From: an uncultured Hyphomicrobiales bacterium | GTDB taxonomy: Bacteria; Pseudomonadota; Alphaproteobacteria; Rhizobiales; Xanthobacteraceae | NCBI GenBank assembly: GCA_903839845.1 | Contig: CAIMEA010000027.1 | Span: 1-57,073, forward strand | Length of the DNA: 57,073 nucleotides | Direction: 5' to 3' | Shown: in pieces, positions 37,248 to 57,073 of the stretch | How the letters are laid out: every line of letters begins with the position of its first letter | How positions within the stretch are numbered: the first letter of the stretch is position 1 | Notes under the pieces: generated by a model | Database searches by the model: none | What the model saw: the letters and a program-made list of their open reading frames with translations, nothing else | What the model was told of the DNA's origin: nothing | Program-made: the position numbers and the translations under genes

Positions 37248-37255
37248 GCCGCGGG

Positions 37256-37672: not shown

Positions 37673-37680
37673 GTTGCGGA

Positions 37681-38442: not shown

Positions 38443-38468
38443 CGTTCGATTTCCTTCTTTGCGCGCGA

Positions 38469-39716
38469 TCAGGCGCTATACACCGGATTTTCAATCAGCA
38501 TGGCAATGCCCTGGCCGCCGCCGATGCAGGCGGAGGCAATGCCATAGCGCAGGTTCGCGCGTTTGAGTTCGCGCGCCAAGGTCAAGGTGAGGCGAATGCC
38601 GGTAGCCCCCAGCGGATGGCCGATGGCAATCGCCCCGCCATTGACGTTCAATCTGTCCTCGTCGAGTTCGAGTTCGCGCGCGCAGGCCATGACCTGGGCG
38701 CCGAAGGCTTCGTTGATCTCGAAGCGGCCGATGTCGCCGAGCGTCAGCCCGGCGCGTTGCAGCACGGCGTTGATCGCCGGTACCGGGCCAATGCCCATGA
38801 CGTCCGGCCGTACGCCGACGGCGGCGCTGGCGACAATGCGCGCCAGCGGCACCTTGCCGAGCCGGCGCGCGTAATCGGCGCTGCCGACCAGGATCGCCGC
38901 CGCGCCATCGACGATGGCCGACGAATTGCCGCCGGTTTGCACGCCGCCGAAGGCCGGCTTGATTTTCGCAAGTTGCGCCTCGGTGGACACGCGGATGTGG
39001 CTGTCGGCTGAAATCTCGTCCTTGATGCGGATGCCGCGATCCTTCAGCCCGTCCACCGAAAATTTTTCGGTCGTTACCGGCACAATCTCGCCGGCAAGAA
39101 ATCCGCTTTGTTGCGCCTCGGCGGCGCGAGCAAAGGAGCGCGCCGCATAGGCGTCGACCTCGGGACGCGTGATCTGATACTGCCGCGCCAGATTCTCGGC
39201 GGTGTCGCCCATGCCGATGCCGCAGGACGGATCGAGCAACGCTTCCCAGAGGAAATCCTTGAACTCGACCTGGCCCATGCGGAAGCCGCCGCGGCTCGTA
39301 TAAGAGGCGACCGGGTTGCGGCTCATGCTTTCGCTGCCGACGCACAGCGCCAGTTCGGCGCGCTGCAGCGAGATCGTATCGGCGGCCTGCGCCAGCACCT
39401 CGATGCCGGTGCCGCAGACCCGCTGCACCAGATGCGCCGGCGTCGCCTGCGGCACGCCGGAATAGAGCCCGATATGGCGCGGCAGCATGTAGGCGTCGAA
39501 GCTGGCCTGCGCCATGTTGCCGGCGATCACGGTGCCGACGTCGTCGGGGTCCGCGCCGCTTTTTGCAAAAGCCGCGCGCGCCGCCTTGATGCCAAGATCG
39601 ATCGGCGACACCGAGGCGAGCGCGCCGTTGTAATCGGCGAAGGGCGTGCGGGCGCCGTCGATCAGCCAGGCGTCGCTGAAGGTCGCCGCCAAACCGTTTT
39701 GCCCTTCTGACGACAC
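38469..39716 (-). CDS. Thiolase (3-oxoacyl-CoA thiolase) of the phenylpropanoid operon
   Basis: 415 residues from GTG 39716. GGGAG overlaps the stop of the upstream ligase gene 7 nt before, and the two genes are 4 bp apart; an ATG at 39770 would lie inside the ligase gene. Catalytic residues: nucleophile Cys in QRVCGTGIEV, His in AIGHPLGATG, second Cys in SACIGGGQG. Compared with the pcaF product at 47996 it is a different thiolase subgroup. It should cleave a 3-aryl-3-oxopropionyl-CoA to aroyl-CoA and acetyl-CoA. Confidence 0.88.
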   Translation of the reverse strand: MSSEGQNGLAATFSDAWLIDGARTPFADYNGALASVSPIDLGIKAARAAFAKSGADPDDVGTVIAGNMAQASFDAYMLPRHIGLYSGVPQATPAHLVQRVCGTGIEVLAQAADTISLQRAELALCVGSESMSRNPVASYTSRGGFRMGQVEFKDFLWEALLDPSCGIGMGDTAENLARQYQITRPEVDAYAARSFARAAEAQQSGFLAGEIVPVTTEKFSVDGLKDRGIRIKDEISADSHIRVSTEAQLAKIKPAFGGVQTGGNSSAIVDGAAAILVGSADYARRLGKVPLARIVASAAVGVRPDVMGIGPVPAINAVLQRAGLTLGDIGRFEINEAFGAQVMACARELELDEDRLNVNGGAIAIGHPLGATGIRLTLTLARELKRANLRYGIASACIGGGQGIAMLIENPVYSA

Positions 39717-39720
39717 GATC

Positions 39721-41598: not shown

Positions 41599-43466
41599 TC
41601 GGCTATCGCAATCACATTGGCCGGCAGCGGCGAGGCATAGAGCTGCGCGGCGAGGCTGGCGCGGCTGGCCAGCACGGCACGCTGGTTGATCGAGCCTTTG
41701 TCGGTCATTTCGGCTTTGTCGAGCGATGGCGGCTCGGCCATCAGGACCGCCCGCATCACCCGCATCGACGACCCCTGACCGGCGGCGAAACCGTCGAGCA
41801 ATTCCGTGAATTTGGCGCGCACCGCCGGCGCTTCGACGACAGCGTCGGCCGGCGTGCCGGCAGCAAGCCCGGCCAGTTTGCGGCAGGCCTCGATGTCCGG
41901 AAAAATGAGCGCGGCGACGTCGTCGCGGTCGGCGCCGGCCAGCACAACGTCGCGGACGAAAGGCGCGAAATAATCGACAAACCGCGCCCGTAGCGGACCG
42001 ACACTGACCCAGGTCCCGGAGGTCAGCTTGAAGTCCTCGGCGAGGCGGCCATCGAACAACAACCCTTTGCCCGGATCGTTCGGGTCGGCGAATTTCAGCG
42101 CGTCGCCAATTTTATAAAAGCCCTCGGCGTCGAAGGCGTCGCGCGTGTGCTGCTCCTGCCGCCAGTAGCCGGGCGTGATGAGCGGACCGCGCAGGCGCGC
42201 TTCCAGCTTGCCGTCGTTCGGCACCAGCTTGAGCTCGACGCCGGGAAACGGCACGCCGATATTGCCGGCGCGGTCGGCATCCCATGTGCAGGCCAGCGCC
42301 GACGGCGCGGTTTCGGTCGAGCCGAGCGACGACAACAGGATAATGCGTTCGCCGGTGGCCTGAACCGACAGGTCGATCAATTCATCCCAGGTCGTCTGGT
42401 TGAGGCTGGCGCCGGCGTAAAACATGACCTTCAGCCGGCTGAAGAAATTCTTGCGCAATGTCTCGTCGGCGCGAAAGTGCGGCACCAGCGCCTCGTAGCC
42501 TTTCGGCACGTTGAAATAAATCGTCGGCGCGATGTCGCGCAGATTGCGCGCGGTCTTCGGCACGCCCGGCGGCGTCGGGTTGCCATCATCGATATAGAGC
42601 GAGCCGCCGTTCATCAGCACCAGATTGAAATTGTGATTGCTGCCGAAGGTGTGGCTCCAGGGCAGCCAGTCGACCACCACCGGCGGCTCTTCCTTAACGA
42701 ACGTAAAGCCTGAGGTAATCATCGCCTGGTTCGCGCACAGCATGCGATGCGTGTTGATCACCGCTTTCGGCGCGCCGGTCGAGCCGGATGTGAACAGAAA
42801 TTTCGCAATCGTGTCGGGCGTCACCTTCGCCTGCGCGGCGGCAACGCCGGCGGCGTCTTCGGCGCCGATCAGATCGGCGAACATCGTCGTTGGCCGGTCG
42901 CCCAACGGGTTTTGCGCCACGACCAGTTCAATGTTGTCCGGCACTGTGGCGTAGAGCGCGCGCGCGAACGGCCCGCCATCTGCGGTAAACACTATGCCGG
43001 GCGTCAGCAGGTCGACGATCATGCGCAATTTGCCGAAATCGCTCGACATCAGCGAATAGGCCGGCGACACCGGCGCGTAAGGAATGCCGACAAGCATCGC
43101 GGCGAGCGCCAGCAACGCATGCTCGATGCTGTTGCCGGAAAGGATAACGATCGGCCGTTCTGGCGACAGGCCGCGCCGCAACAGCGATGCGCCGATGCGT
43201 TTCACCGCATTGAGCGTCTGCGCATAAGTGAGGGTCCGCCATTTATCCTGTGCGTCGCGCTGCGCCAGGAACACGCGGTCGGGCGCAGCCTTTGCCCAAT
43301 GATCGAGCGGTTCGCCGATTGTGGCGTGATAGCGCGCGAGCGCCTGCGCGGCCGTCATATGGATCGTGCCGTCGGCACGCCGGTCGAGCACGCAATCAAA
43401 CGCGCCAAGCCGCACCGGACGGAGCGGCGCGGCGGCGGGTCGGGGCATTCTTCCCGGTTCCGGCAT
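41595..43466 (-). CDS. fcs: Feruloyl-CoA synthetase-like acyl-CoA ligase (copy 2)
   Basis: 623 residues with FLFTSGSTGAPKAVIN, SLGSTETAPSA and the C-terminal Lys segment AEMTDKGSINQRAVL, the same as in its downstream neighbour. ATG 43466 has GGGA upstream. It is separated from the hydratase gene by 39 bp and overlaps copy 1 by 4 bp, so both ligases are made from one message. Two hydroxycinnamate ligases side by side suggest a broad substrate range or a requirement for distinct substrates such as p-coumarate and ferulate; this is inference. Confidence 0.88.
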   Translation of the reverse strand: MPEPGRMPRPAAAPLRPVRLGAFDCVLDRRADGTIHMTAAQALARYHATIGEPLDHWAKAAPDRVFLAQRDAQDKWRTLTYAQTLNAVKRIGASLLRRGLSPERPIVILSGNSIEHALLALAAMLVGIPYAPVSPAYSLMSSDFGKLRMIVDLLTPGIVFTADGGPFARALYATVPDNIELVVAQNPLGDRPTTMFADLIGAEDAAGVAAAQAKVTPDTIAKFLFTSGSTGAPKAVINTHRMLCANQAMITSGFTFVKEEPPVVVDWLPWSHTFGSNHNFNLVLMNGGSLYIDDGNPTPPGVPKTARNLRDIAPTIYFNVPKGYEALVPHFRADETLRKNFFSRLKVMFYAGASLNQTTWDELIDLSVQATGERIILLSSLGSTETAPSALACTWDADRAGNIGVPFPGVELKLVPNDGKLEARLRGPLITPGYWRQEQHTRDAFDAEGFYKIGDALKFADPNDPGKGLLFDGRLAEDFKLTSGTWVSVGPLRARFVDYFAPFVRDVVLAGADRDDVAALIFPDIEACRKLAGLAAGTPADAVVEAPAVRAKFTELLDGFAAGQGSSMRVMRAVLMAEPPSLDKAEMTDKGSINQRAVLASRASLAAQLYASPLPANVIAIAE

Positions 43467-43505
43467 TTCGTCCCTAGCGCGTTCTTGTCGTCATAACGTT
43501 TCGTC

Positions 43506-44330
43506 TCACTCCGGCCGGGTCACCTTGCCGGCGCGGCCCTCGAGAAAGGCGGTGAGCCGGCTTTTTGCCTCGGCGTCGGCCTGCGCGATCGAGGAAATCA
43601 GCGCCTCGACCGCGTAGCCGCTGCCGGGATCGATCTCGGCAATGCGCGGCAGCACATGGGTGATGGCGAAATTGGTCAGCGCGGTGTTGCTGGCGATGCG
43701 CTCGGCCAGCGCCAGACCCTTGGCGAAGCCCTCGCCCGGTTCTGTCAGATAGGTCGACAGCCCCATCGCCTGGCCATCCTCGGCGGCATAAGTGCGGCCG
43801 GTCAGCATCATGTCCATCATGCGGGCGACGCCGATCAGGCGCGGCAGCCTTACCGAGCCGCCGCCACCGACATAGATGCCGCGGCTGCCCTCGGGCAGGC
43901 CGTAATAGGTCGAACGCTCGGCGACGCGCACATGCGTGGCCGCCGCCAGTTCAAGCCCGCCGCCGACCACCGCGCCATGCAGCACGCAAACCACCGGCAC
44001 CTTGCCGAACTGGATCTTGTCGAACACGCGATGCCACATGCTGGAGTGCGAAATGCCCTGCCGGATGTCGCGCTCCTGTAATTCGCTCAGGTCGAGTCCG
44101 GCGGAAAAATGATCGCCCTCGCCATGCACCAGGGCCGCGGCGATGTCGTCGGGCAGCGAGGTGAAGAACGTCTCGATGCCGAGCACCGTGGTGTCGTCGA
44201 GCGCGTTACGCTTCTGCGGCCGAGCCAATGTCAGGATGGCGACCTTGCCGCGCCGTTCGGCGCGCAGCGAAGCGGGCAGCGCAATGTTCAACGATTCTGC
44301 ACCGGCAGCGGACGTCGGTCTTGAACTCAC
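43506..44330 (-). CDS. Enoyl-CoA hydratase (crotonase family)
   Basis: 274 residues from GTG 44330, with AGGAG 9 nt upstream; ATG 44375 in the same frame has no good ribosome site. Oxyanion-hole segments HFSAGLD and AVVGGG are present. Both crotonase catalytic glutamates are kept at the standard 20-residue spacing: Glu127 (GLELAA) and Glu147 (GLPEGS). Pseudomonas-type hydroxycinnamoyl-CoA hydratase-lyase lacks the first of these (FSPLVA there), so simple hydration is favoured here over retro-aldol cleavage. It lies between the binding-protein gene and the two ligases. Confidence 0.85.
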   Translation of the reverse strand: MSSRPTSAAGAESLNIALPASLRAERRGKVAILTLARPQKRNALDDTTVLGIETFFTSLPDDIAAALVHGEGDHFSAGLDLSELQERDIRQGISHSSMWHRVFDKIQFGKVPVVCVLHGAVVGGGLELAAATHVRVAERSTYYGLPEGSRGIYVGGGGSVRLPRLIGVARMMDMMLTGRTYAAEDGQAMGLSTYLTEPGEGFAKGLALAERIASNTALTNFAITHVLPRIAEIDPGSGYAVEALISSIAQADAEAKSRLTAFLEGRAGKVTRPE

Positions 44331-44433
44331 GGGCTTAATCTCCTGCGGGCCGCCGCCTCTCGGGGCGACGGCCATTTGATCATGTCGCTGACAAACCTCT
44401 GACGCAACCGCCGGCCGGTCGCGCCGCTTATGC

Positions 44434-45633
44434 CTATTTCACCAGCGGACAACCGCCATCCGCCAGCGGTCGGAACGCCTTGTCGGCGGGAATCGTGCCG
44501 ACGATCTTGAACAGATCCCAGTCGCCTTTCGATTCCGATGGCGCTTTCACCTGCAGCAGAACGAGCGGGTGGATGGCGCGGCCGTCCGGCCGGATCGTCA
44601 CTTTGCCATAGACCGGCTCGTCGGATGGCGTTGCCTTCATGGCGTCGACCACAGCCTTGCCGTCGGTCGCGCCGCCGGCTTTGTCGACGGACTTGAGATA
44701 ATGCAAGGTGGCGGAGTAGACGCCCGCCTGCATGTGGTTGGGATACATCTTTTTCGGATGCAGCGCGGCGTAGCGCTTGGCGAAGGCGCGCGTGCCTTCG
44801 TTTTCGTCCCAGTACCAGGCGTTGATGGCGCCCAGGCCTTGCGCGGTTTGCAGACCGATCGCCGGCACGCTTTGCAGATCGAAAATCAGCGCCACAACCT
44901 TCTGGCTGGCGCTGATCTTGAAGTCGTTGGCCTGCTTGATGGTGTTGACGGTGTCGCCGCCGGCATTGGCGAGCAGGATAACATCGGCCTTCGAGGCCTG
45001 CGCCTGCAACAGTGCCGACGAAAAATCATTGATGCCGAGCGGCAGGCGAACGGCGCCGAGCACCTTGCCGCCGCTGGCGTTGATTTCGTCGGTCGCCTGC
45101 TTTTCGAGGTCCTGACCGAAGGCGTAGTCCGCCGTGATGAAGAAGAATGTTTTGGCGCCTTGAGCCAAGAGACCCTTGGCCGTGCCGTGGCCGAAAGACC
45201 ATGTGTCATAGGTCCAGTGCACGAAGTTCGGCGAGCACTTGGCGCCGGTCAACAGCGCGGTGCCGGCGCCGGAGCCGATCACCACCTTGTTCTTTTCGCG
45301 GGCGATGTCCGACACCGCCAGCGCCACCGCCGAATTCGGCAGATCGACGATCATGTCGACGCCATCGAGATCGAACCAGCGCTTGGCGATGCCGGCGCCG
45401 ATATCGGGCTTGTTCTGATGGTCGGCGTTGATGATTTCGACTTTGCGCTTCGATGTCTTGGCGAAGTCCTCCGCCGCCATTTGCGCTGCGACCACCGAGC
45501 CGGGCCCCTGGAAATCGGAATAGACGCTCGACATGTCGTTCATGACGCCGATGCGGATGGTGTTGCTCGACTGGGCCAACGCCGGCGCCGAGCACAAGGC
45601 CAGCAGAAACGCGAGCTTCGCGGATTTCACCAT
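44434..45633 (-). CDS. ABC transporter substrate-binding protein (branched-chain amino acid/aromatic type)
   Basis: 399 residues. A signal peptide (MVKSAKLAFLLALCSAPALAQ) is followed by a Peripla_BP_6 domain (IRIGVMNDMSSVYSDFQGPGS; FITADYAFGQDL). This group includes the phenylpropanoid-binding CouP of Rhodopseudomonas. As head of the ligase operon it probably binds hydroxycinnamates in the periplasm. No matching ABC permease or ATPase genes are in the window, so it must share one encoded elsewhere. GGAGG precedes the ATG. The 23-bp perfect dyad 45718-45740 lies about 95 bp upstream. Confidence 0.87.
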   Translation of the reverse strand: MVKSAKLAFLLALCSAPALAQSSNTIRIGVMNDMSSVYSDFQGPGSVVAAQMAAEDFAKTSKRKVEIINADHQNKPDIGAGIAKRWFDLDGVDMIVDLPNSAVALAVSDIAREKNKVVIGSGAGTALLTGAKCSPNFVHWTYDTWSFGHGTAKGLLAQGAKTFFFITADYAFGQDLEKQATDEINASGGKVLGAVRLPLGINDFSSALLQAQASKADVILLANAGGDTVNTIKQANDFKISASQKVVALIFDLQSVPAIGLQTAQGLGAINAWYWDENEGTRAFAKRYAALHPKKMYPNHMQAGVYSATLHYLKSVDKAGGATDGKAVVDAMKATPSDEPVYGKVTIRPDGRAIHPLVLLQVKAPSESKGDWDLFKIVGTIPADKAFRPLADGGCPLVK

Positions 45634-45717
45634 GATGTCCTCCCTGCGGACGTACGGCGCGGTCCTGTTTTATTGTCGCCGCAAGGCGAGGTTGTCACCG
45701 CCGCGCCGCGGGGTCAA

Positions 45718-45740
45718 GATTGTTGTCGAGGACAACAATC
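45718..45740. promoter_or_regulatory. Perfect 10+3+10 inverted repeat, candidate operator for the ligase operon
   Basis: GATTGTTGTC (45718-45727) and GACAACAATC (45731-45740) flank GAG with no mismatch. The site lies between the stop of the DUF3237 gene and the ATG of the binding-protein gene (45633). TTGACC, a possible -35 box, immediately follows on the transcribed strand. No T-run is present, arguing against a terminator. Its sequence is unrelated to the palindrome at 36691, so another regulator is implied. Confidence 0.7.
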
Positions 45741-45781
45741 GGCATTTGGCGATGCTGCGCCGCGGCAACGGTGAGCGGTTT

Positions 45782-46243
45782 CTAGAGGACTTCGAAGACG
45801 TCCAGCCGCACGGCGCGCGCTTCGCGTTGGCCGCGCGCCAGGGCCAGAATGCGGTTGAGCCAGGAGACCGAGGGGCCGGAGGTCTCGAACCGCATCACGG
45901 TGCGGAAATAGTAGAGCGATGGATCGACCTTGTCGCCGCGGGCGAGACTTTCCAGGACGTTGGGCGGACCGTGCCGCAGCCCCTCGCTAGAAACCAGGAT
46001 GCGCGCGCCTGTGTCGGTATCGATGGTGTAGCGCGCCGACACATCGATGGCGCCGTCGCCGCGCACGATCTGCCAATCGGCCCCGCCCCGGAGAATGCGC
46101 CCCTTCAATCTCGGTCCATCGACGGTGCCGCCGAGGATATCGATGATGCGCCGCTCGCCATAGGGTGTCCGGCCCAGCTCGAGGGCGGCGGCCAGCTCGA
46201 CATGAATTTGGAAGATGAGTTGCATTCCCGGCATGACGGTCAT
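45782..46243 (-). CDS. DUF3237 domain-containing protein
   Basis: 153 residues matching the DUF3237 beta-barrel family: QLIFQIHVEL at the N-terminus, the GRTPYGERRIIDILGGTVDGPRLKGRIL core with Gly-rich turns, GADWQIVRGDGAIDVSARYTI, and a C-terminal LDVFEVL. ATG 46243, 46234 and 46225 are possible starts. Function is unknown; members often occur in aromatic and steroid catabolic clusters, so an accessory role is possible. It is divergent from the CoA-transferase operon and may be transcribed ahead of the ligase operon. Confidence 0.8.
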   Translation of the reverse strand: MTVMPGMQLIFQIHVELAAALELGRTPYGERRIIDILGGTVDGPRLKGRILRGGADWQIVRGDGAIDVSARYTIDTDTGARILVSSEGLRHGPPNVLESLARGDKVDPSLYYFRTVMRFETSGPSVSWLNRILALARGQREARAVRLDVFEVL

Positions 46244-46344: not shown

Positions 46345-47205
46345 ATGGCGCGTATCACGTCTCTTTCCGAAGCCATCGCCGGCACCGTGAACGACGGCGA
46401 TACAGTCGCCTTGGAAGGCTTCACGCATCTCATTCCGCATGCCGCCTGCCACGAGATCATCCGGCAAGGCCGCAAGGAGCTGACTTTGGTGCGCATGACG
46501 CCGGATCTGGTTTACGACCAGATGATCGGCATGGGCTGCGTCAAAAAGCTGGTTTTCTCCTGGGGCGGCAATCCCGGCGTCGGCTCGCTGCACCGATTCC
46601 GCGATGCGGTAGAAAATGGTTGGCCACATAAACTTGAGATCGAAGAGCATTCGCACGCCGCCATGGCCAATGCCTATGAGGCCGGCGCGTCCGGCCTGCC
46701 TTGCGCGATCTTCCGCGGCTATATCGGCGGCGACCTGCCCAAGGTGAACGCCAAGATCAAACGCGTCACCTGCCCATTTACCGGCGAGGAACTCGCCGCC
46801 ATCCCGTCCCACCGCCCCGACGTCGCGGTCATCCATGCCCAGCGCGCCGACCGGGCGGGCAATGTGATGATCGAGGGCGTGCTCGGCGTGCAGAAGGAGG
46901 CCGTGCTCGCCTCGAAGCGTTCGGTGGTGACGGTCGAGGAAATCGTCGACGAATTGCCCGAACGCAGCCTGAACGCGGTGGTGCTGCCGCACTGGACCGT
47001 CGGCCATGTCGTTGAAGTTCCGGGCGGCGCCTTCCCGTCCTATGCGCAGGGCTATTACCCGCGCAACAACAGCTTCTATAAAGCGTGGGACGACATCGCC
47101 AAGGATCGCGACAGTTTCCACGCCTGGATGAAGACAAACGTTCTGGACAAAGGTCCCGATGCCTTCGCGCAATATGCGCGCAAGCACAAAGCGGCGGCGG
47201 AGTGA
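46345..47205 (+). CDS. pcaI: 3-oxoadipate CoA-transferase-type subunit A
   Basis: 286 residues of the CoA-transferase family I alpha subunit, glutaconate/3-oxoadipate (CatI) type. It starts with SLSEAIAGTVNDGDTVALEGFTH and has the NPGVGSLHRF and HAQRADRAGNVMIEG segments typical of this subgroup. With subunit B (5-bp gap) it moves CoA from succinyl-CoA to 3-oxoadipate, just before PcaF in the beta-ketoadipate pathway. Adjacent pcaF, pcaH and pcaG make this role likely although the sequence group also includes other oxo-acid transferases. Confidence 0.87.
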   Translation: MARITSLSEAIAGTVNDGDTVALEGFTHLIPHAACHEIIRQGRKELTLVRMTPDLVYDQMIGMGCVKKLVFSWGGNPGVGSLHRFRDAVENGWPHKLEIEEHSHAAMANAYEAGASGLPCAIFRGYIGGDLPKVNAKIKRVTCPFTGEELAAIPSHRPDVAVIHAQRADRAGNVMIEGVLGVQKEAVLASKRSVVTVEEIVDELPERSLNAVVLPHWTVGHVVEVPGGAFPSYAQGYYPRNNSFYKAWDDIAKDRDSFHAWMKTNVLDKGPDAFAQYARKHKAAAE

Positions 47206-47210
47206 CGACA

Positions 47211-47981
47211 ATGGCCAATTATAAGCCGACCGAAATGATGACCATCGCCGCCGCGCGCCTGCTCAAGAACGACGACATCTGCTTTGTGGGAATTGGCCAG
47301 CCATCGGCGGCCTGCAATCTGGCGCGCCTGACGCATGCGCCTGACATCACCTTGATCTACGAATCCGGCACGCTCGCCACCAAGCCGACCGTGCTGCCTC
47401 TGTCGATCGGCGACGGCGAATTGTGCGACACCGCGCTGACCACCGTGTCGGTGCCGGAAATGTTTCGCTACTGGCTGCAAGGCGGCCGCATCAAGGTCGG
47501 CTTTCTCGGCGGCGCGCAGATCGACAAGTTCGCCAACCTCAACACGACCGTGGTCGGCCCTTACGACAAGCCGAAGGTTCGTCTTCCCGGCGGCGGCGGC
47601 GCGCCGGAGATCGCCACGTCGTGCGGCGAGATCTTCATCATCATGGCGCAGGGCAAACGCTCGTTTGTCGATAAACTGGATTTCGTCACCTCGATCGGTC
47701 ACGTTTCGGGCGGCGACTCCCGCCAAAAGCTTGGCGTCAAGACCAAGGGTCCGACCAAGCTGATCACCGATCTCGCCATCTTCGCGCCCGATCCGCAGAC
47801 CAAGGAGATGATTGTCGTCTCGATCCATCCCGGCGTGACACGCGAGCAAGTTCAGGAAAACACCGGCTGGCCGGTCAAGTTCGCTGTCAAGGTCGACGAA
47901 ACACCGGCGCCGACGGCCAGGGAACTCGAGGTGCTGCGCGAACTGCATGCGCGCACCAACCGTGCTCACGCGGCGGCGTAA
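47211..47981 (+). CDS. pcaJ: 3-oxoadipate CoA-transferase-type subunit B
   Basis: 256 residues from ATG 47211, directly after subunit A. The catalytic glutamate expected to form the CoA thioester is in LIYESGTLATKP. GIGQPSAACNLARL and the glycine-rich LPGGGGAPEIATSC segment are CatJ-like. It forms the active site with subunit A. Both run in the same frame order as in other beta-ketoadipate operons (transferase, thiolase, dioxygenase), with pcaF 14 bp downstream. Confidence 0.87.
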   Translation: MANYKPTEMMTIAAARLLKNDDICFVGIGQPSAACNLARLTHAPDITLIYESGTLATKPTVLPLSIGDGELCDTALTTVSVPEMFRYWLQGGRIKVGFLGGAQIDKFANLNTTVVGPYDKPKVRLPGGGGAPEIATSCGEIFIIMAQGKRSFVDKLDFVTSIGHVSGGDSRQKLGVKTKGPTKLITDLAIFAPDPQTKEMIVVSIHPGVTREQVQENTGWPVKFAVKVDETPAPTARELEVLRELHARTNRAHAAA

Positions 47982-47995
47982 AGGAATAAAGAAAA

Positions 47996-49204
47996 ATGCG
48001 CGACGTATATCTCTGCGATGCCATTCGCACTCCGATCGGCCGCTTTGGCGGTTCGCTCGCCAAGGTGCGCACCGACGATCTCGCCGCCGTGCCGATCAAG
48101 GCATTGATGGCGCGCAACCCGAAGGTCGATTGGGACAAGCTCGAAGAAGTCTTTTACGGCTGCGCCAACCAGGCCGGTGAGGACAACCGCAATGTCGCGC
48201 GCATGGCGCTGCTCTTGGCGGGTCTGCCGCAGAGCGTTCCCGGCGTCACCTTGAACCGGCTCTGCGCCTCGGGCCTGGAGGCGGTCGGCACCGCCGCCCG
48301 CGCCATCCGTTCCGGCGAAATGGAATTTGCCATTGCCGGTGGCGTCGAATCGATGACGCGGGCGCCCTTCGTGCAGGGCAAGGCGCAGGAAGCCTTCTCG
48401 CGCCATGCCGAAATCTTCGACACCACCATCGGCTGGCGCTTCGTCAACCCGCTGATGAAGAAGCAATACGGCGTCGACGCCATGCCGGAGACCGGCGAGA
48501 ACGTGGCGGCGGATTTCCAGATATCGCGCGCCGATCAGGACGCCTTTGCCATCCGCTCGCAGCAGCGCGCCGGCAAGGCGATCGCCGCCGGTTACTTCGC
48601 CAAGGAAATCGTCGCGGTCGAAATTCCCGGCCGCAAGGGCGAGACCGTCAAGGTCGACGCCGATGAGCATCCGCGTCCCGACACGACGTTGGAGCAACTT
48701 GCCAAACTCAAAACGCCGTTCCGCGAGCCCGGCACGGTCACGGCGGGCAACGCCTCCGGCGTCAATGACGGCGCGGCGGCGATCATTCTCGCGTCGGAAG
48801 CCGCGGTGAAGGCGCATGGTTTGACGCCGCGCGCCCGCATTCTCGGCATGGCATCGGCTGGCGTGGCGCCGCGCATCATGGGCATCGGCCCGGTGCCGGC
48901 GACGCTCAAGCTTATGGCGCGTCTCGGGCACAAGATCCGCGATTACGACGTGATCGAACTCAATGAAGCTTTCGCCTCGCAGTCGCTCGCGGTGTTGCGG
49001 CAGTTGGGCCTGAGTGACGACGCCGAGCATGTCAATCCGCATGGCGGTGCCATCGCGCTCGGCCATCCGCTCGGCATGTCGGGCGCCCGTCTGGCGCTGA
49101 CGGCGGTGCATGGTTTGGAAGAAAGAGGCGGTAGGCTGGCGCTCGCCACGTTGTGCGTCGGTGTCGGACAGGGTGTGTCGCTCGCACTCGAACGCGTACA
49201 ATAA
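47996..49204 (+). CDS. pcaF: 3-oxoadipyl-CoA thiolase
   Basis: 402 residues. Nucleophile Cys90 (TLNRLCASGLEAV), the NEAFA segment, His in ALGHPLGMSGARL and Cys in TLCVGVGQG. The Leu-Cys-Ala-Ser-Gly and GGVESMTRAP patterns plus the start MRDVYLCDAIRTPIGRFGGSL are those of PcaF/PaaJ thiolases. It splits 3-oxoadipyl-CoA to succinyl-CoA and acetyl-CoA, the end of the protocatechuate branch. AAAGGA lies well placed before ATG 47996. It is followed after 15 bp by pcaH. Confidence 0.93.
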   Translation: MRDVYLCDAIRTPIGRFGGSLAKVRTDDLAAVPIKALMARNPKVDWDKLEEVFYGCANQAGEDNRNVARMALLLAGLPQSVPGVTLNRLCASGLEAVGTAARAIRSGEMEFAIAGGVESMTRAPFVQGKAQEAFSRHAEIFDTTIGWRFVNPLMKKQYGVDAMPETGENVAADFQISRADQDAFAIRSQQRAGKAIAAGYFAKEIVAVEIPGRKGETVKVDADEHPRPDTTLEQLAKLKTPFREPGTVTAGNASGVNDGAAAIILASEAAVKAHGLTPRARILGMASAGVAPRIMGIGPVPATLKLMARLGHKIRDYDVIELNEAFASQSLAVLRQLGLSDDAEHVNPHGGAIALGHPLGMSGARLALTAVHGLEERGGRLALATLCVGVGQGVSLALERVQ

Positions 49205-49219
49205 AAAGGATAAACGAGA

Positions 49220-49927
49220 ATGTCGCTGATCTATCCCAAGAAAAGCCTCGAGGCTTATCCCAAGCATCTCTCACCCGGCTACAAAAGCACCGTCAAGCGC
49301 TCGCCGTCGAAGCCGCTGATGATCGTGCCGCATACTTTGTCGGAGTTGACCGGCCCGGTTTACGGCCACGACGCGGTCCAGGAAAACGACAACGACCTGA
49401 CCAAGCAGCACAAGGGCGAGCCGCTTGGCGAACGCATCGTCGTGCATGGACATGTCCTCGACGAGGACAAGCGCCCAGTGCCGAATGCGCTGGTCGAACT
49501 GTGGCAGGCCAATGCCTGCGGCCGTTACGTTCACAACGTCGATCAGCATCCGGCGCCGCTCGATCCGAACTTCACCGGCGCCGGCCGCACCGTCACCGAC
49601 GCCAAGGGCTATTACAAATTCATCACCGTGAAGCCGGGCGCCTATCCGTGGGGCAATCACCACAACGCCTGGCGGCCGAACCACATCCACTTCTCTGTGT
49701 TCGGCCACTCGTTCCTGTCGCGCCTGGTCACGCAGATGTATTTCCCCGGCGACTACCTTTTCCCCTACGACCCGATCTTCAATTCGGTGCTGGATGAAAA
49801 GGCGCGCGCGCGCATGATCTCGACCTTCGATCTGGAAAACACCGTGCCGGATTGGGCGCTAGCTTTCCGCTTCGACATCGTGCTGCGCGGCCGCGAAGCG
49901 ACGCCGCTTGACAACGACGAACACTAG
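49220..49927 (+). CDS. pcaH: Protocatechuate 3,4-dioxygenase beta subunit
   Basis: 235 residues. The four ferric-iron ligands are found at the family spacing: Tyr103, Tyr142, His155 and His157 (CGRYVHN; GAYPWGN; RPNHIHF), matching Tyr408/Tyr447/His460/His462 of the Pseudomonas enzyme. The subunit holds the non-haem iron and cleaves the ring between the hydroxyls to 3-carboxy-cis,cis-muconate. The alpha subunit follows after 78 bp, which contain a dispersed palindromic repeat. The remaining genes pcaB, pcaC and pcaD are not in this window. Confidence 0.95.
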   Translation: MSLIYPKKSLEAYPKHLSPGYKSTVKRSPSKPLMIVPHTLSELTGPVYGHDAVQENDNDLTKQHKGEPLGERIVVHGHVLDEDKRPVPNALVELWQANACGRYVHNVDQHPAPLDPNFTGAGRTVTDAKGYYKFITVKPGAYPWGNHHNAWRPNHIHFSVFGHSFLSRLVTQMYFPGDYLFPYDPIFNSVLDEKARARMISTFDLENTVPDWALAFRFDIVLRGREATPLDNDEH

Positions 49928-50005: not shown

Positions 50006-50617
50006 ATGTCCGAAATCACGCCCTCACAGACTGTCGGTCCGTTCTTCGCCTATGGCCTCACGCCCAAGGGCCGTTGCGACTGGGATCCGAATGGCAGCTA
50101 CAGCTGGAAGAACACGGTCGAATCCAATCTGGTGACGCCGGATGCTTCCGGCACCCGCATTCACATCGAAGGCACTGTGTTCGACGGCGACGGCAAGCCG
50201 ATCAACGACTGCATGATCGAAATCTGGCAGGCGGACAGCCAGGGCCGTTACGCCAGTCCCGGCGCCAATCGCGCTTTGCCCAACACCAAGTTCAAAGGTT
50301 TCGGCCGCTCCGCCACCGACAAGGCCGGCGTCTATGCCTTCGACACCATCAAGCCGGGCTCCGTCGCCGGGCCGGGCGGCAAGCCGCAGGCGCCGCATAT
50401 CGTGGTCTGCATTTTCTCGCGCGGCATGCTGCGGCAGGTCTATACGCGGCTGTATTTCGACGACGAGCCGGGCAATGCCAGCGACCCCATTCTGAACATG
50501 GTGCCGGCCGACCGCCGCGGCACCCTCATTGCCCACAAGCAGCCAGGCGCCGACAACCAGTACCGCTTCGATATCCGCGTGCAGGGCGGTGATGAGACGG
50601 TGTTTTTCGATATCTAG
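50006..50617 (+). CDS. pcaG: Protocatechuate 3,4-dioxygenase alpha subunit
   Basis: 203 residues from ATG 50006 (MSEITPSQTVGPFFAYGL), preceded by GAGGAAA. The frame is open upstream into the repeat but that is not coding. The alpha subunit shares the intradiol dioxygenase fold (IHIEGTVFDGDGKPINDCMIEIWQAD) but lacks the iron ligands. Substrate-carboxylate binding is contributed from its N-terminal TVGPFF region. It pairs with PcaH. A clear intrinsic terminator follows at 50645-50672. Confidence 0.94.
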   Translation: MSEITPSQTVGPFFAYGLTPKGRCDWDPNGSYSWKNTVESNLVTPDASGTRIHIEGTVFDGDGKPINDCMIEIWQADSQGRYASPGANRALPNTKFKGFGRSATDKAGVYAFDTIKPGSVAGPGGKPQAPHIVVCIFSRGMLRQVYTRLYFDDEPGNASDPILNMVPADRRGTLIAHKQPGADNQYRFDIRVQGGDETVFFDI

Positions 50618-50915: not shown

Positions 50916-52325
50916 ATGAACGAGGTCATTCTCCAGGAGATCAGCGAATTCTGCCGTCAGCGCGGTCTGGCCGAATCGACATTCGGGCGCCGCGCCGTCA
51001 ATGACGGCAAGCTCGCCAGCCGCCTGCGCAATGGCGGCCGCATCACCACCGACACGCTGGAGCGCATTCGCGCCTTCATGTCGCAAAGCGACGATGACGC
51101 CCCGGCGCGCCGTCGCGTGCTGTTCGACGCGCCATCCGCGCAAGTACTTCCCATCATTAAACCGCAGGCGCCACCAATGGCCACGAATCAGACGGATGAC
51201 GATCCGCAACGCAATTTCCGCTTCTTCGACAACCGGCAGAAATACCTGTTGTTCGTGAATACCTGCAGCGAAAAATGGGAAGTCGCTCAGCGCGTCAGTC
51301 TCGAACTCGCCAATATTCACCCGCGCCCGCCGGCGGTGCGCGTGTTCGACGCCGGCGTCGGCGACGGCAGCGTGCTGACGCGCGTGATGCGCTCAATGCA
51401 CGACAAGTTTCCGACTATGCCGCACTATATCGTCGGCAAGGAAATCAGTCTCGAGGACGTGCGCCTCACCTTGCACAAGATGGCCGATCGTTTCGTCGAG
51501 CATCCGTCGACCGTGCTGGTCCTGACCAACCTGGCCTATGCCGAAGCGCCGTGGCTCGCCGCCAAGTCTCTGCAGGCAGCGACCAGCATGGTGTGGAAAG
51601 AGCTGGCGATGGACGGCACGACCGCCCACACGTTCGAGGAGCAGATCACCGCGCTTGAACCGTTTCTGGCCGAAAGCTGGAAGGCCAAGGTCTCGCCGAA
51701 GAGCGGCAACCCTGTCTATGAACGTCCTGTCGTTCTGGTGATCTACCGCAACGATCACCGCTTCCTGCTCGATCAGGTCATCCCGAAGCCGGGCGGCACC
51801 AGCGCCGACTACGATCTGGTGATCGCCTCGCAGCCTTATCGCGCCCGCGCTTCGCTCGAGTTCAAGGCCAAGCGCGTGCTGGCGCCGTTGGCAAAGGCAT
51901 TAGGACCGGGCGGACGCATGATTGCGATCCAATCCTACGGTCATGATCCGGCGATGGAAATCATCCATAAAGTGTGGCCGGAGGACAATCCGTTCACCCA
52001 CAGCCGTCACGACTTGCTCAAGGAAACCAAGCACGAACTGGGATCGGCGGCGCGCGACCTGAGCTTCAACGCCTATTCCGACCAGCGTTCGCTGTTCAAG
52101 TACGAGATGCACACGCTGCCATCGGAAGTGTCGTCGTCGATCGGGACATCGACTTTGATGGCGGCGTGGAACGCGGCGGTCTATGTGGCGCAAGTCGAGG
52201 ACGACCGGTTGTCCGACGTCAACAGCGACCGGCGTTTTATCGATGCGACGCGCGACACGCTGCAAGAGCACGGCGGGCTTTGGTTCTACGACGAATCCTT
52301 CGTGATTTCGCGCCGGCGCGAGTAA
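50916..52325 (+). CDS. Methyltransferase-fold protein with N-terminal helical domain
   Basis: 469 residues from ATG 50916, with AGGAA 6 nt upstream. Residues 1-57 form a small helical domain with the STFGRRAVNDGKLASRLRNGG pattern seen in short Rhizobiales DNA-binding-like proteins. From about 105 a Rossmann-type core appears: VRVFDAGVGDGSVLTRVM is a motif I like SAM-binding loop, and GPGGRMIAIQSYG resembles a post-motif III strand. The substrate is unknown. It lies 4 bp before the methylenetetrahydrofolate reductase homologue, so the two are translationally linked. Function as a SAM-dependent methyltransferase is inferred only. Confidence 0.7.
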   Translation: MNEVILQEISEFCRQRGLAESTFGRRAVNDGKLASRLRNGGRITTDTLERIRAFMSQSDDDAPARRRVLFDAPSAQVLPIIKPQAPPMATNQTDDDPQRNFRFFDNRQKYLLFVNTCSEKWEVAQRVSLELANIHPRPPAVRVFDAGVGDGSVLTRVMRSMHDKFPTMPHYIVGKEISLEDVRLTLHKMADRFVEHPSTVLVLTNLAYAEAPWLAAKSLQAATSMVWKELAMDGTTAHTFEEQITALEPFLAESWKAKVSPKSGNPVYERPVVLVIYRNDHRFLLDQVIPKPGGTSADYDLVIASQPYRARASLEFKAKRVLAPLAKALGPGGRMIAIQSYGHDPAMEIIHKVWPEDNPFTHSRHDLLKETKHELGSAARDLSFNAYSDQRSLFKYEMHTLPSEVSSSIGTSTLMAAWNAAVYVAQVEDDRLSDVNSDRRFIDATRDTLQEHGGLWFYDESFVISRRRE

Positions 52326-53305: not shown

Positions 53306-54418
53306 ATGTCCCAGAGAACCACCCCGCCCTTCCGCGCCGACCAGGTCGGCAGCATTCTGCGCACCAAGGCCATTCACGACGCGCGCGCCAAGCACGAGAA
53401 GGGCGAGATGACCGACGCCCAACTCAAGGCGATTGAGGACGCCGAGATCGTCAAGGTGATCAAGAAGCAGGAAGACGTCGGTCTGGAAGCCATCACCGAC
53501 GGCGAATACCGCCGCTCGTTCTGGCACTATGATTTCTACGGCATGCTGGACGGCGTCGATGTCGTTAAGGCCGACCACGGCATTCAGTTCCAGGGCATGC
53601 AGACCCAGATGAAGGTGCTCAAGGTCACCGGCAAGATCGACTTCGCCGCGAACCATCCGATGCTGGAGCACTTCAAGTTCCTTAAAGGCCACACAACCAA
53701 GACGCCGAAGATGTGCATTCCCTCGCCGACGGTGATGCACTTCCGCCTCGAGCCGGGTTCGGTCGCCGCTTCCGCCTATCCCAACCGCGATGCGATTTTC
53801 GACGATCTCGCCATTGCCTATCAAAAGGCGATCAAGGTGTTCTACGCCGCCGGCTGCCGCTATCTTCAGTTCGACGACACCGCCTGGGCCTATCTCTGCT
53901 CCGAGGCCGAACTGAAGAAGGCGCGTGAGCGGGGTCTCGACGTCGACCATCTGCAAGCGACCTATACCAAGTGCATCAACAAGGCTCTGGAAGCCAAGCC
54001 CGCCGACATGGTCATCACCACGCATGTCTGCCGCGGTAATTTCCGCTCGACCTTCATCTCGTCGGGCGGCTACGAGCCGGTTGCCGAAAGCATGCTGGCC
54101 AAGTGCAATTACGACGGCTACTTCCTCGAATACGACACCGACCGCGCCGGCGGCTTCGAGCCGCTCCGCTTCCTGCCGAAGGGCAAAAAGATCGTCGTCC
54201 TCGGTCTCGTCAGTTCGAAGGTCGGCGCGCTTGAGCCGATCGCCGACATCAAGAAGCGCATCAAGGAAGCCGAGAAGTTCGTCGCGCTCGAGCAGCTCGC
54301 TTTGTCGCCGCAGTGCGGCTTCGCCTCGACAGAGGAAGGCAACGTGCTGGCCGAGGACGAACAATGGGCCAAGCTTAGGGAGATCGTCGCGATCTCGAAG
54401 GACGTCTGGGGGAAGTAG
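53306..54418 (+). CDS. Core MetE-like (cobalamin-independent methionine synthase family) protein, copy 1
   Basis: 370 residues, so only the C-terminal catalytic barrel of MetE (full enzyme about 750). ATG 53306 has GGAGG at 5 nt. The zinc ligands are visible: His240 and Cys242 (THVCRGN), Glu275 (FLEYDTD) and Cys337 (SPQCGFA). The family includes archaeal and bacterial core-MetE methyltransferases and epoxyalkane:coenzyme M transferase, so the thiol substrate and methyl donor are open. It follows the MTHFR homologue by 91 bp and is the first of four tandem paralogues. Confidence 0.85.
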   Translation: MSQRTTPPFRADQVGSILRTKAIHDARAKHEKGEMTDAQLKAIEDAEIVKVIKKQEDVGLEAITDGEYRRSFWHYDFYGMLDGVDVVKADHGIQFQGMQTQMKVLKVTGKIDFAANHPMLEHFKFLKGHTTKTPKMCIPSPTVMHFRLEPGSVAASAYPNRDAIFDDLAIAYQKAIKVFYAAGCRYLQFDDTAWAYLCSEAELKKARERGLDVDHLQATYTKCINKALEAKPADMVITTHVCRGNFRSTFISSGGYEPVAESMLAKCNYDGYFLEYDTDRAGGFEPLRFLPKGKKIVVLGLVSSKVGALEPIADIKKRIKEAEKFVALEQLALSPQCGFASTEEGNVLAEDEQWAKLREIVAISKDVWGK

Positions 54419-54434
54419 CTTCCTCTTCCCTCTT

Positions 54435-54590
54435 CCCTCTCCCCGCGTTTGCCGGGAGAGGGTGGCGAGCGGCGGCTGCCGCTCGCCGGGTGAGGGGCCG
54501 ATCGATTCGCTCAGCCTGCCTCATACCCCTCACCCGACCGCATTCGCTGAAAGCTCAGGCGGCTGACCTCTCGCCGTTAACGGGGAGAGG
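54435..54590. repeat. Large composite palindromic repeat between MetE-like copies 1 and 2
   Basis: Four paired segments: CCCTCTCCC...GGGAGAGGG (54435-54462), GCGAGCGGC-GGCT-GCCGCTCGC (54465-54486), GGGTGAGGGG (54488-54497) with CCCCTCACCC (54526-54535), and CCTCTC...GAGAGG (54567-54590). This fills nearly all of the 198-bp gap. In RNA it would make a long branched hairpin between two genes of a presumed operon. Confidence 0.75.
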
Positions 54591-54616
54591 TGAAGAAAAC
54601 TAGGGAGCCAACGCCA

Positions 54617-55720
54617 ATGTCGCAACGTACATCGCCGCCATTCCGCGCCGACCATGTCGGCAGCCTGCTGCGCCCGACCGTCCTCAAGGACGCGCGCGCA
54701 AAATTCGCCGCCGGCACGCTCGACGCCGCGGGCTTGAAAAAAATCGAAGACGAAGAAATCATCAAGGTCGTCAAGAAGCAGGAAGAAATCGGCCTGCAAC
54801 TGGCCACCGACGGCGAATTCCGCCGCTCCTGGTGGCATTTCGATTTCTTCCGCGGCCTGCAAGGCGTCGATCTGGTCGAGGCGCCGCCGATCAAATTCCA
54901 CGGCGTCGTCACCAAGAGCGAAGCGATCAAAATCAACCGCAAGGTCGACTTCGCGGGCCATCCGCATCTCGAGCATTTCAAGTTCTTGAAGGCGAATTGC
55001 AGTGTAGTCCCGAAGATGACGATTCCGGCGCCATCGACATTCCACTTCCGGCAGGGCCGGGCGATGGTCAGCAAGGAGGCCTATCCCGATCTCGACGTGT
55101 TCTTCGACGACGTCGGCAAGGCCTGGCAGAAGGCGATCGGCGCGTTCTACGACGCCGGTTGCCGTTATCTGCAGCTTGACGACACCGCCTGGGCGATGAT
55201 GTGCGACCCGAAGGAGCGCGAGGGTTCGAAAGCGCGCGGCGATAATCCCGATGCGCTGCCGGAAATCTATGCGCGCGTGACCAATGCCGCGCTCAAGGAC
55301 AAGCCGGCCGACATGGCCATCACCATGCATTCCTGTCGCGGCAATTTCCGTTCGACCTGGATCGCGCAAGGCGGCTACGAATTCGTCGCCGAGCAGCTGC
55401 TCGGCAAAACCAATCTCGACGGCTACTTCCTTGAATATGACTCAGACCGCGCCGGCGGCTTCGAGCCGTTGCGCTATTTCCCCAAGGGCGACAAGCAACT
55501 GGTTCTCGGTCTCGTCACCTCCAAGAGCGGGACACTTGAATCCAAGGACGACATCAAGCGTCGTATCGACCAGGCGACGAAATATGTCGCGCTCGAACAA
55601 CTTTGCCTGTCGCCGCAATGCGGCTTCTCCTCGACCGAGGAAGGCAATGTGCTGGCCGAAGACGAGCAGTGGGCCAAGCTGCGCATGATTGTCGAACTCT
55701 CAAAGGAAATCTGGAAGTAA
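54617..55720 (+). CDS. Core MetE-like protein, copy 2
   Basis: 367 residues from ATG 54617 (MSQRTSPPFRADHVGSLLRP), with GGGAG 9 nt upstream; an upstream ATG at 54590 falls in the repeat. Zinc-site motifs are conserved: MHSCRGN, FLEYDSDRAGG and SPQCGFS. It shows strong similarity along the whole length to copies 1, 3 and 4, most obvious in the PPFRADxVGS start and the CGF(A/S)STEEGNVLAEDEQWAKL end. Its stop overlaps the start of copy 3 by one base (TAATG). Confidence 0.85.
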   Translation: MSQRTSPPFRADHVGSLLRPTVLKDARAKFAAGTLDAAGLKKIEDEEIIKVVKKQEEIGLQLATDGEFRRSWWHFDFFRGLQGVDLVEAPPIKFHGVVTKSEAIKINRKVDFAGHPHLEHFKFLKANCSVVPKMTIPAPSTFHFRQGRAMVSKEAYPDLDVFFDDVGKAWQKAIGAFYDAGCRYLQLDDTAWAMMCDPKEREGSKARGDNPDALPEIYARVTNAALKDKPADMAITMHSCRGNFRSTWIAQGGYEFVAEQLLGKTNLDGYFLEYDSDRAGGFEPLRYFPKGDKQLVLGLVTSKSGTLESKDDIKRRIDQATKYVALEQLCLSPQCGFSSTEEGNVLAEDEQWAKLRMIVELSKEIWK

Positions 55721-56829
55721 TGACCCTTCGTACCAAGCCGCCGTTTCGAGCCGATCATGTAGGGAGTCTTCTCCGTCCCGCCGCGCTGAAGCAGGCCCGT
55801 GCCCGGCGCGAAAATGGCGAGATCACAGCGGAGGCGCTTAAAGCAATCGAAGACCGCGAGATCATTTCCGTCATCAAGAAGCAGGAAGACGTTGGCCTGA
55901 AGTCCATTACCGACGGCGAATTCCGCCGAGCCTTCTGGAATTACGACTTTCTCGGCGAACTCGACGGCGCGGAAGCCTATCTCGGCGAGCGCAAGATCAA
56001 ATTCGAAGGCGTCAATCCGCGGCCGATGATGATGCGCGTGACCGGCAAGCTCGGCACTTTCTCAGGCCACCCGATGCTCGAACACTTCAAGTTCCTCAAA
56101 GAGCACACAAGCGCGACGCCGAAGATGACCATCCCGTCGCCATCCAGCATGCATTTCCGCTATGGCCGTGACGCGGTGCCGGCGAGCATTTATCCGGACA
56201 TGAGCGACTTCTACCGCGATCTCGGCGACACCTACCGCCAGGCCGTGCGCGCTTTCGCCGATGTCGGGTGCCGCTATCTGCAGCTCGACGAGGTGAATTT
56301 TACCTATCTGTGCGACCCGAAGCTGCGCGAGCAGGTCGCCAGCCGCGGCGACGACCCTTCCAGCCTGCCGCTGGTTTATGCCGATATGATCAACGCGGCG
56401 ATTTCCGACATCCCGTCCGACATGGCCATCACCATGCATCTGTGCCGGGGCAATTTTCAGTCCACATTCGTTGCTTCCGGCGGCTACGAGCCGGTGGCGG
56501 AAATCCTGTTCAACAAGATCAATGTCAATGGCTACTTCATGGAGTACGATTCGGAACGCGCCGGCGGTTTCGAGCCGTTGCGTTTCGTGCCGAAGGGCAA
56601 AACGGTAGTGCTCGGCCTCGTCACCTCGAAATCCGGCAAGCTCGAATCGAAGGACGAACTCAAGCGTCGCATCGACGAAGCCGCCAGATTCATTCCGCTC
56701 GACCAGTTTTGCCTGTCGCCGCAATGCGGCTTTGCCTCGACCGAGGAAGGCAATATCCTTGCCGAGGACGAGCAATGGGCCAAGTTGCGCATGATCGTCG
56801 AGATAGCGAACGAGGTTTGGGGCGGATAA
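55720..56829 (+). CDS. Core MetE-like protein, copy 3
   Basis: 369 residues from ATG 55720, sharing one base with the copy 2 stop and with GGAAG just upstream, so it is translationally coupled. Zinc-site motifs: MHLCRGN, FMEYDSERAGG and SPQCGFA. The substrate-facing first third differs most from the other copies (LGERKIKFEGVNPRP), so separate substrates are possible. The next copy follows after 103 bp containing a REP-like element. Confidence 0.85.
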   Translation: MTLRTKPPFRADHVGSLLRPAALKQARARRENGEITAEALKAIEDREIISVIKKQEDVGLKSITDGEFRRAFWNYDFLGELDGAEAYLGERKIKFEGVNPRPMMMRVTGKLGTFSGHPMLEHFKFLKEHTSATPKMTIPSPSSMHFRYGRDAVPASIYPDMSDFYRDLGDTYRQAVRAFADVGCRYLQLDEVNFTYLCDPKLREQVASRGDDPSSLPLVYADMINAAISDIPSDMAITMHLCRGNFQSTFVASGGYEPVAEILFNKINVNGYFMEYDSERAGGFEPLRFVPKGKTVVLGLVTSKSGKLESKDELKRRIDEAARFIPLDQFCLSPQCGFASTEEGNILAEDEQWAKLRMIVEIANEVWGG

Positions 56830-56838
56830 ACCCCGCTC

Positions 56839-56900
56839 ATTCCCGCGAAAGCGGGAATCCAGACAGCCAAAAAGCGCTGGGTCCCCGCTTTCGCGGGGAC
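56839..56900. repeat. Paired REP-like hairpins
   Basis: ATTCCCGC-GAAA-GCGGGAAT (56839-56858) and GTCCCCGC-TTTC-GCGGGGAC (56881-56900) are two perfect 8-bp hairpins in opposite orientation, as in paired REP units. The second is the same hairpin as at 22135-22154. Confidence 0.75.
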
Positions 56901-56932
56901 GAACGGAATTAAAATCAGGGAGCGAGACGCCG

Positions 56933-57073
56933 ATGTCGCAAAACACCAAGCCGCCGTTCCGGGCCGATCATGTCGGCAGTTTGCTTCGTCCCGCCGCGCT
57001 GAAGGATGCGCGCGCCAAATTCGCCAAGGGCGAAATCCCGCTCGCCGCGCTCACCGAGGTCGAGGATCGCGAG
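56933..57073 (+). CDS. Core MetE-like protein, copy 4 (truncated by window end)
   Basis: 47 residues are visible from ATG 56933 (MSQNTKPPFRADHVGSLLRP), with GGGAG about 11 nt upstream. The N-terminus is nearly the same as in copies 2 and 3, so this is a fourth paralogue in the same array; the zinc site lies outside the window. Confidence 0.8.
   Translation, partial: MSQNTKPPFRADHVGSLLRPAALKDARAKFAKGEIPLAALTEVEDRE

Follow-up and report, generated by a model that had tools for sequence, protein, structure and literature searches.

The stretch of DNA that we analyzed (57,073 nucleotides, called here the window) is the entire contig C27 of a draft genome of 4.04 Mb that is 99.8% complete. Its end holds three complete genes of 367–370 codons in head-to-tail order, followed by the opening 141 bases of one more (M1 to M4, Table 1), in agreement with the original prediction of three full copies of about 370 residues and the start of another. 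The coupling of one pair by a single-base overlap, also predicted, is found at the M2/M3 junction, which reads TAATG, with one A shared by the stop codon of M2 and the start codon of M3. Another contig of the same genome, C177, begins with the final 141 bases of the window in an exact overlap. When the last 174 bases of the window were searched against the genome (40 of 111 first-look candidates scored), C27 and C177 were the only 100% matches among the six listed. C177 completes M4 and then runs into genes for a MaoC-type hydratase, an acyl-CoA dehydrogenase and a CaiB-type CoA-transferase, so the array consists of exactly four genes and the count of copies past position 57,073 gives no fifth.

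Table 1. Features of the methyltransferase array and of the genes preceding it in the window.
Feature	Position	Strand	Remarks
CoA-transferase subunit A-like	46345..47205	+	PF01144
CoA-transferase subunit B-like	47211..47981	+	PF01144
pcaF, 3-oxoadipyl-CoA thiolase	47996..49204	+	TIGR02430, 710 bits vs 597
pcaH, protocatechuate 3,4-dioxygenase beta	49220..49927	+	TIGR02422, 371 bits vs 296.4
pcaG, protocatechuate 3,4-dioxygenase alpha	50006..50617	+	TIGR02423, 250.5 bits vs 126.25
X480, conserved protein	50916..52325	+	no Pfam match
Divergent methylenetetrahydrofolate reductase, 294 aa	52330..53214	+	best solved relative 7xg9/7xlf, E 5e-50
M1, core-MetE-like methyltransferase, 370 aa	53306..54418	+	NF005085
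M2, core-MetE-like methyltransferase, 367 aa	54617..55720	+	
M3, core-MetE-like methyltransferase, 369 aa	55720..56829	+	start overlaps M2 stop by 1 base
M4, first 141 bases in the window	56933..57073	+	complete (366 aa) on contig C177 (L014:1-1098)

The array thus follows a protocatechuate degradation cluster, and this aromatic-degradation setting, which the original prediction did not use, is the strongest clue to the role of M1–M4. There are three intradiol dioxygenase (PF00775) matches in the whole genome, and two of them are the pcaHG pair adjoining the array. The reductase scores just below the Pfam PF02219 cut-off, and its best solved relative is, we assume, a Sphingobium SYK-6 protein. 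X480 had no Pfam match in any of 25 members and no sequence match in the PDB; its low confidence model (mean pLDDT 59) has N-terminal helices and a SAM-methyltransferase-like core, with matches to SAM-methyltransferases. Among the best 80 of 259 loci, the nearest named relatives were Pseudolabrys and other Xanthobacteraceae or Rhizobiales MAGs. Across the genus the order is CoA-transferase A/B, pcaF, pcaH, pcaG, X480, reductase, M genes, MaoC, acyl-CoA dehydrogenase and CaiB, with gaps in some loci. M-type genes were found in 41 of the 43 genomes of the genus (our own included), nine with one copy and 32 with two or more, in a manual count of the listed matches that takes in fragments at contig edges and copies located outside the array.

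All four proteins pass the curated cut-off (313 bits) of the family NF005085 (PRK06520), with 569.6, 566.0, 545.1 and 482.3 bits for M1 to M4, and the genome carries two further members, on C211 (409 bits) and C23 (341 bits). M1–M3 match Pfam Meth_synt_2 (PF01717) as proteins and M4 at the DNA level. The zinc site HxC...E...C, predicted for the complete copies, is confirmed by alignment in all four, which have the ligands His641, Cys643, Glu665 and Cys726 (E. coli MetE numbering). Neither Trp561 nor His694, which presumably have folate roles in MetE, is kept in any copy; His694 is replaced by Lys, and the alignment around Trp561 is uncertain. Ser433, Glu484 and Asp599, identified as homocysteine residues in the available part of PMC7857596, are kept in all four when aligned with E. 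coli MetE. As predicted too, the N-terminal half of MetE is absent throughout, because 366–370 residues leave no room for it. M2 was modelled with AlphaFold2 (mean pLDDT 86.8), and the best matches of the model were 1ypx (TM 0.80, by query length) and Thermotoga maritima MetE (TM 0.78).

We compared the array with E. coli MetE, a MesD-type protein and a zinc-site protein (L171) encoded beside alkene monooxygenase genes in Nocardioides JS614. In the resulting tree M1–M4 and six other PRK06520-type proteins formed one clade with 100/100 support, the branches outside it being long. The Nocardioides protein, which we take to be EtnE, the epoxyalkane:coenzyme M transferase, with epoxide chemistry, is 18–21% identical to M1–M4 and has the same zinc ligands (H, C, E, C) and, at the His694 column, the same Lys, but has Asn and Lys in place of the homocysteine Ser and Glu, as would be expected if its thiol is no amino acid.

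The four copies are 51.4–65.6% identical to each other, and a quick tree with 128 rows puts each of them in an orthogroup with members from other genera (M1, 30 rows, SH-aLRT 96; M2, 25 rows, 97; M3, 26 rows, 100; M4, 20 rows, 99). Compared with their counterparts in three close relatives, M1–M4 of the window gave dN/dS values of 0.03–0.21. M1–M4 are therefore an ancient array under purifying selection, and a recent amplification is ruled out by the cross-genus orthogroups and the identities. The outcomes that the original prediction had named as contrary to it were mutual identities above 90%, a position within ordinary MetE and loss of the zinc residues; the values are well below 90%, the clade is separate, and the ligands are kept in 4/4. 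There are 16 alignment columns that are at least 85% conserved inside each orthogroup yet different between orthogroups, including 143–144 (HFR in M1–M3, YGR in M4) and 189–191 and 194, just after the homocysteine Asp. Seven of these 16 are near catalytic residues, which is not significant (P 0.08).

We have also examined M-type genes in other genera, taking as markers genes for ring cleavage, the gallate/lig pathway, LigM, VanA and UbiD. Among the named loci (best 80 of 259), X480 was present in 27, and 25 of these had a ring-cleavage gene. In the 53 X480-less loci of the same set, many of them short, there was a ring-cleavage gene in 20 and any marker in 29. When only the 31 of at least 15 kb were considered, which are not independent since several come from close relatives (Bosea, Microvirga), ring cleavage was found in 17, ring cleavage or gallate/lig pathway in 20, any marker in 23 and none in eight, the genome-wide yardstick for marker frequency being PF00775 in the window genome only. 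A Liv-type importer or binding protein was encoded in 19 of these 31. In the Bosea lupini locus, equivalogs of 4-oxalomesaconate tautomerase and of LigK lie with an importer and M, and the stop of M overlaps, in ATGA, the start of a catechol 2,3-dioxygenase gene. In L144 M comes 7 bases after pcaG, itself preceded by pcaH, and in L118 the order is LigA, LigB, an oxidoreductase (presumably LigC-like) and M1. M is found with a VanA_C Rieske oxygenase and an importer in L127 and adjoins a VanA-type oxygenase in L150. Four plasmid loci (Klebsiella, Providencia, Rhodovulum and Priestia) had no aromatic-degradation gene among the neighbours listed in their gene tables, which are incomplete; the Klebsiella gene adjoins the importer genes urtABCDE.

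Within the genus, the reductase gene was found in 40 of the 43 genomes, the exceptions being G015 and G026, both also without M, and the fragmented G020. A search for LigM was positive in 16 of the 43 genomes and found none in the window genome. In some relatives a LigM-like protein (E 2e-196 to 5x1i) and a GntR regulator are encoded between the reductase and M1. Of the 27 LigM-less genomes, 25 retain the reductase, which suggests a folate step near M. Twelve of the 43 genomes have M together with the reductase and gave no match to LigM or VanA_C (PF19112), the two demethylase types searched. They are G005, G006, G009, G017, G018, G021, G022, G025, G032, G035, G062 and G066, and eight of the twelve are at least 90% complete. 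The window genome has two VanA_C matches, the best one of 167 bits on C193.

LigM was present in eight of nine single-M genomes vs eight of 32 multi-M genomes (Fisher p 0.001, raw counts). To allow for phylogeny we used a tree of 31 loci, with 12 near-duplicates of the 43 dropped. Copy number differed in two of five independent LigM-differing pairs (sign test p 0.5). The link between LigM and low copy number thus loses its significance when phylogeny is taken into account, and we do not claim an offset of LigM loss by gain of M copies. Nor do we claim the swapping of a LigM-reductase-M1 cassette; LigM changed six times on the core tree, four on the reductase and M1 trees, three on that of the acyl-CoA dehydrogenase and two on that of MaoC, over row sets that differ. 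All the same, the reductase diverges far more than pcaH when LigM-bearing and LigM-less relatives are compared (median dN 0.41 vs 0.03, six pairs). We saw no relaxation of selection on the reductase where LigM has been lost, the median dN/dS being 0.21 with and without LigM. One in-frame stop was found in seven of the 40 reductase matches, C-terminal in the two that were read (G008 and G032).

We tentatively propose that M1–M4 are zinc/homocysteine methyltransferases of methoxyaromatic catabolism, paralogues that diverged over methyl donors, a reading that we hold somewhat short of probable. The enzymes, free of a folate domain, would hold homocysteine as a zinc thiolate and transfer a methyl group to it. 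The methyl group would come from a different methoxylated aromatic for each paralogue (vanillate- or syringate-type acids, 3-O-methylgallate, hydroxycinnamate-derived ethers), and the demethylated catechol or gallate ring would then be open to the ring-cleavage pathway encoded next to the array. We infer all three elements of this scheme, the aryl methyl ether donor, methionine as product and the difference in donor among copies. Judging by their residues, M1–M4 probably still use homocysteine, and the presence of S/E here vs N/K in the Nocardioides protein would place the divergence on the donor side. The original prediction had left a choice between methyl donors and thiol acceptors; different donors would fit, and different acceptors are disfavoured by the S, E and D kept in all copies and by the N/K of the Nocardioides protein.

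Several observations support the methoxyaromatic reading, namely the recurrence of the cluster across the genus, the aromatic-catabolic loci elsewhere, the LigM found at the same spot in relatives, the 12 genomes with M and reductase and neither demethylase type, and the combination of kept homocysteine and zinc residues with the loss of Trp561 and the Lys at His694. On the other hand, passing aryl methyl groups on to methionine at the rate of catabolism would demand a large supply of homocysteine. The reading is also weakened by the reductase kept without LigM, by the M genes that adjoin LigM or VanA-type oxygenases (L127, L150), already vanillate-demethylating, by the VanA_C match of the window genome itself, and by the eight long loci without markers and the plasmid loci without listed aromatic genes. 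In its strongest form, which we find possible but unlikely, M1–M4 would be aryl O-demethylases of the MetE fold, independent of oxygen, corrinoid and folate, that pass lignin methyl groups directly to homocysteine, one paralogue per methoxy position or substrate, and yield lignin-derived methionine.

The main alternative, to our mind rather unlikely, is that M takes the methyl group from 5-methyl-THF, supplied by LigM or the adjacent reductase, to homocysteine and so regenerates THF, with the methoxyaromatic C1 ending in methionine and the copies serving dosage or different folates. The distribution of the reductase in the genus speaks for it, including its retention without LigM and its joint absence with M from G015 and G026, although these two may simply be without the whole cluster. 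The adjoining LigM of some relatives and the kept homocysteine and zinc residues also fit. The idea is workable, since in an engineered system co-expression of LigM and MetE lowers the THF needed, according to the available part of PMC12628177. Against it, the folate-related features of MetE (the N-terminal half, Trp561 and His694) are missing, most genomes of the genus (27/43) are without LigM, none of the 53 named X480-less loci (best 80 of 259) has the reductase, and one substrate does not need four diverged paralogues.

A second alternative would have M move the aryl methyl to THF, its MetE fold standing in for LigM, and the adjacent reductase oxidise the resulting 5-methyl-THF. Both the reductase kept in LigM-less genomes and the raw contrast in LigM between single-M and multi-M genomes could be explained in this way. 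We consider it improbable, because a non-thiol acceptor would not require the kept zinc ligands and homocysteine residues, and the copy number contrast comes down to two of five pairs. Less probable again is that no methyl is transferred at all, the zinc thiolate opening or adding to an imported electrophile derived from aromatics, like epoxyalkane:CoM transferase. That the Nocardioides protein belongs to the same superfamily, with the same zinc ligands and Lys, favours this possibility, while its N and K at the S and E positions and its low identity to M1–M4 go against it.

As to ordinary methionine synthesis, contig C181 of the genome carries a MetH-type gene and a canonical MetF, C204 an additional MTHFR, and C41 a gene of MesD type whose product scores 541.6 bits (NF006589 cut-off, 392). 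These genes, together with the orthogroups and the dN/dS values, give good support to the predicted old and diverged family that is dispensable for methionine synthesis. That M1–M4 are redundant methionine synthases amplified by chance, as the NCBI name of the NF005085 family ('cobalamin-independent methionine synthase II') might suggest, is very unlikely and already disfavoured by these other synthesis genes, the four cross-genus orthogroups and the catabolic setting of the loci.

Short MetE-like proteins, plasmid genes among them, are often annotated as methionine synthases without a proven donor. An old array in protocatechuate clusters, with LigM and gallate-pathway neighbours in relatives, provides a concrete and testable donor class. 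The available part of PMC12628177 lists three classes of O-demethylases (Rieske oxygenases, P450s and THF-dependent enzymes). If the methoxyaromatic reading is true, another chemistry would be added to them and many automatic annotations would be corrected.

Known systems resemble M1–M4 to different degrees. Other PRK06520 proteins, with the Listeria structure 1ypx, share the curated cut-off, the fold (TM 0.80) and the zinc and homocysteine residues; the difference is that here there are four paralogues inside an aromatic-degradation cluster. Our literature search, with most subscription journals outside its coverage, found no paper that gives the methyl donor of this family or links it to methoxyaromatics. 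For a core-MetE-like gene of Phaeobacter, the available part of PMC12366255 describes a deletion that did not abolish the DMSP-driven shortening of the lag phase. Canonical MetE has in common the fold of the catalytic domain (TM 0.78), the zinc site and S433/E484/D599, but M1–M4 are without its N-terminal half, are only 18–23% identical to the E. coli enzyme and have not kept Trp561 and His694.

MesD is also free of a folate domain, occurs in aerobic bacteria and has the same homocysteine triad, but M1–M4 are 22% identical to the MesD-type protein of their own genome (C41) and score 34.3–47.8 bits with NF006589, far below its cut-off. We take NF006589 as the MesD model because the C41 protein that passes it has 3rpd as best match, and 3RPD is named MesD in the available part of PMC7857596. 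No DUF1852 (MesX) match was found among the proteins of the window and C177 scanned with Pfam. Finally, LigM, the vanillate/3-O-methylgallate O-demethylase, is found at the same locus as the reductase in some relatives and has the same job that we propose for M1–M4. LigM belongs to a different family, with a GcvT-type domain (PF01571) and THF as acceptor, whereas M1–M3 are PF01717 proteins and not of the GcvT type.

The gene block adjoining the pca genes, which lie upstream of the four tandem core-MetE-like methyltransferase genes (M genes), looks in its gene content like one for hydroxycinnamate catabolism. In contig C41 of the window's genome (L019:1780-4055), a MesD-type gene overlaps the gene upstream by a single base, the final one of the upstream stop codon. 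That upstream gene resembles 3-hydroxybenzoate 6-monooxygenase, so the setting is aromatic here too. MesD-like proteins were also found inside or adjoining the M genes of two other loci (L118:5657-6691 and L129:12718-13740), each scoring about 269 bits against NF006589, the model taken as MesD, below its cut-off. In L129 the MesD-like gene is followed by a catechol 1,2-dioxygenase-like gene.

The genome encodes five more PF01717 (Meth_synt_2) proteins, none above any NCBIfam cut-off, and in the comparison of gene clusters among loci the one in C35 was preceded by a Liv-type importer.

Features of the window and further PF01717 proteins of its genome
Feature	Location	Remarks
Putative catabolic gene block	window 36747-46243	two AMP-ligases, enoyl-CoA hydratase, thiolase, SDR, 4HBT thioesterase, binding protein, DUF3237, MarR
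Palindromic intergenic repeat	window 54435-54591	M1/M2 gap
Palindromic intergenic repeat	window 56833-56906	M3/M4 gap
PF01717 protein	L018 (C35)	below NCBIfam cut-offs
PF01717 proteins, two	L015 (C187)	below NCBIfam cut-offs
PF01717 protein	L017 (C164)	below NCBIfam cut-offs
PF01717 protein	L020 (C61)	below NCBIfam cut-offs

The core of the repeats found within the M array, CCCGCGAAAGCGGG, has a further exact copy at window 22138. X480, the gene following pcaG (window 50916-52325), is strongly conserved (87% mean column identity in an alignment of 25 rows); its product had no match in a Pfam search, and a low-confidence structure model showed likeness to SAM methyltransferases plus an N-terminal helical part.

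In several relatives (L061, L083, L108, L109 and others), a Peripla_BP_6 binding-protein gene (cluster c27) has been inserted within the M array or adjoining it. On a Klebsiella quasipneumoniae plasmid (L152), a 54% identical relative is located immediately upstream of urtABCDE-type importer genes, with IS5 transposases flanking on either side.
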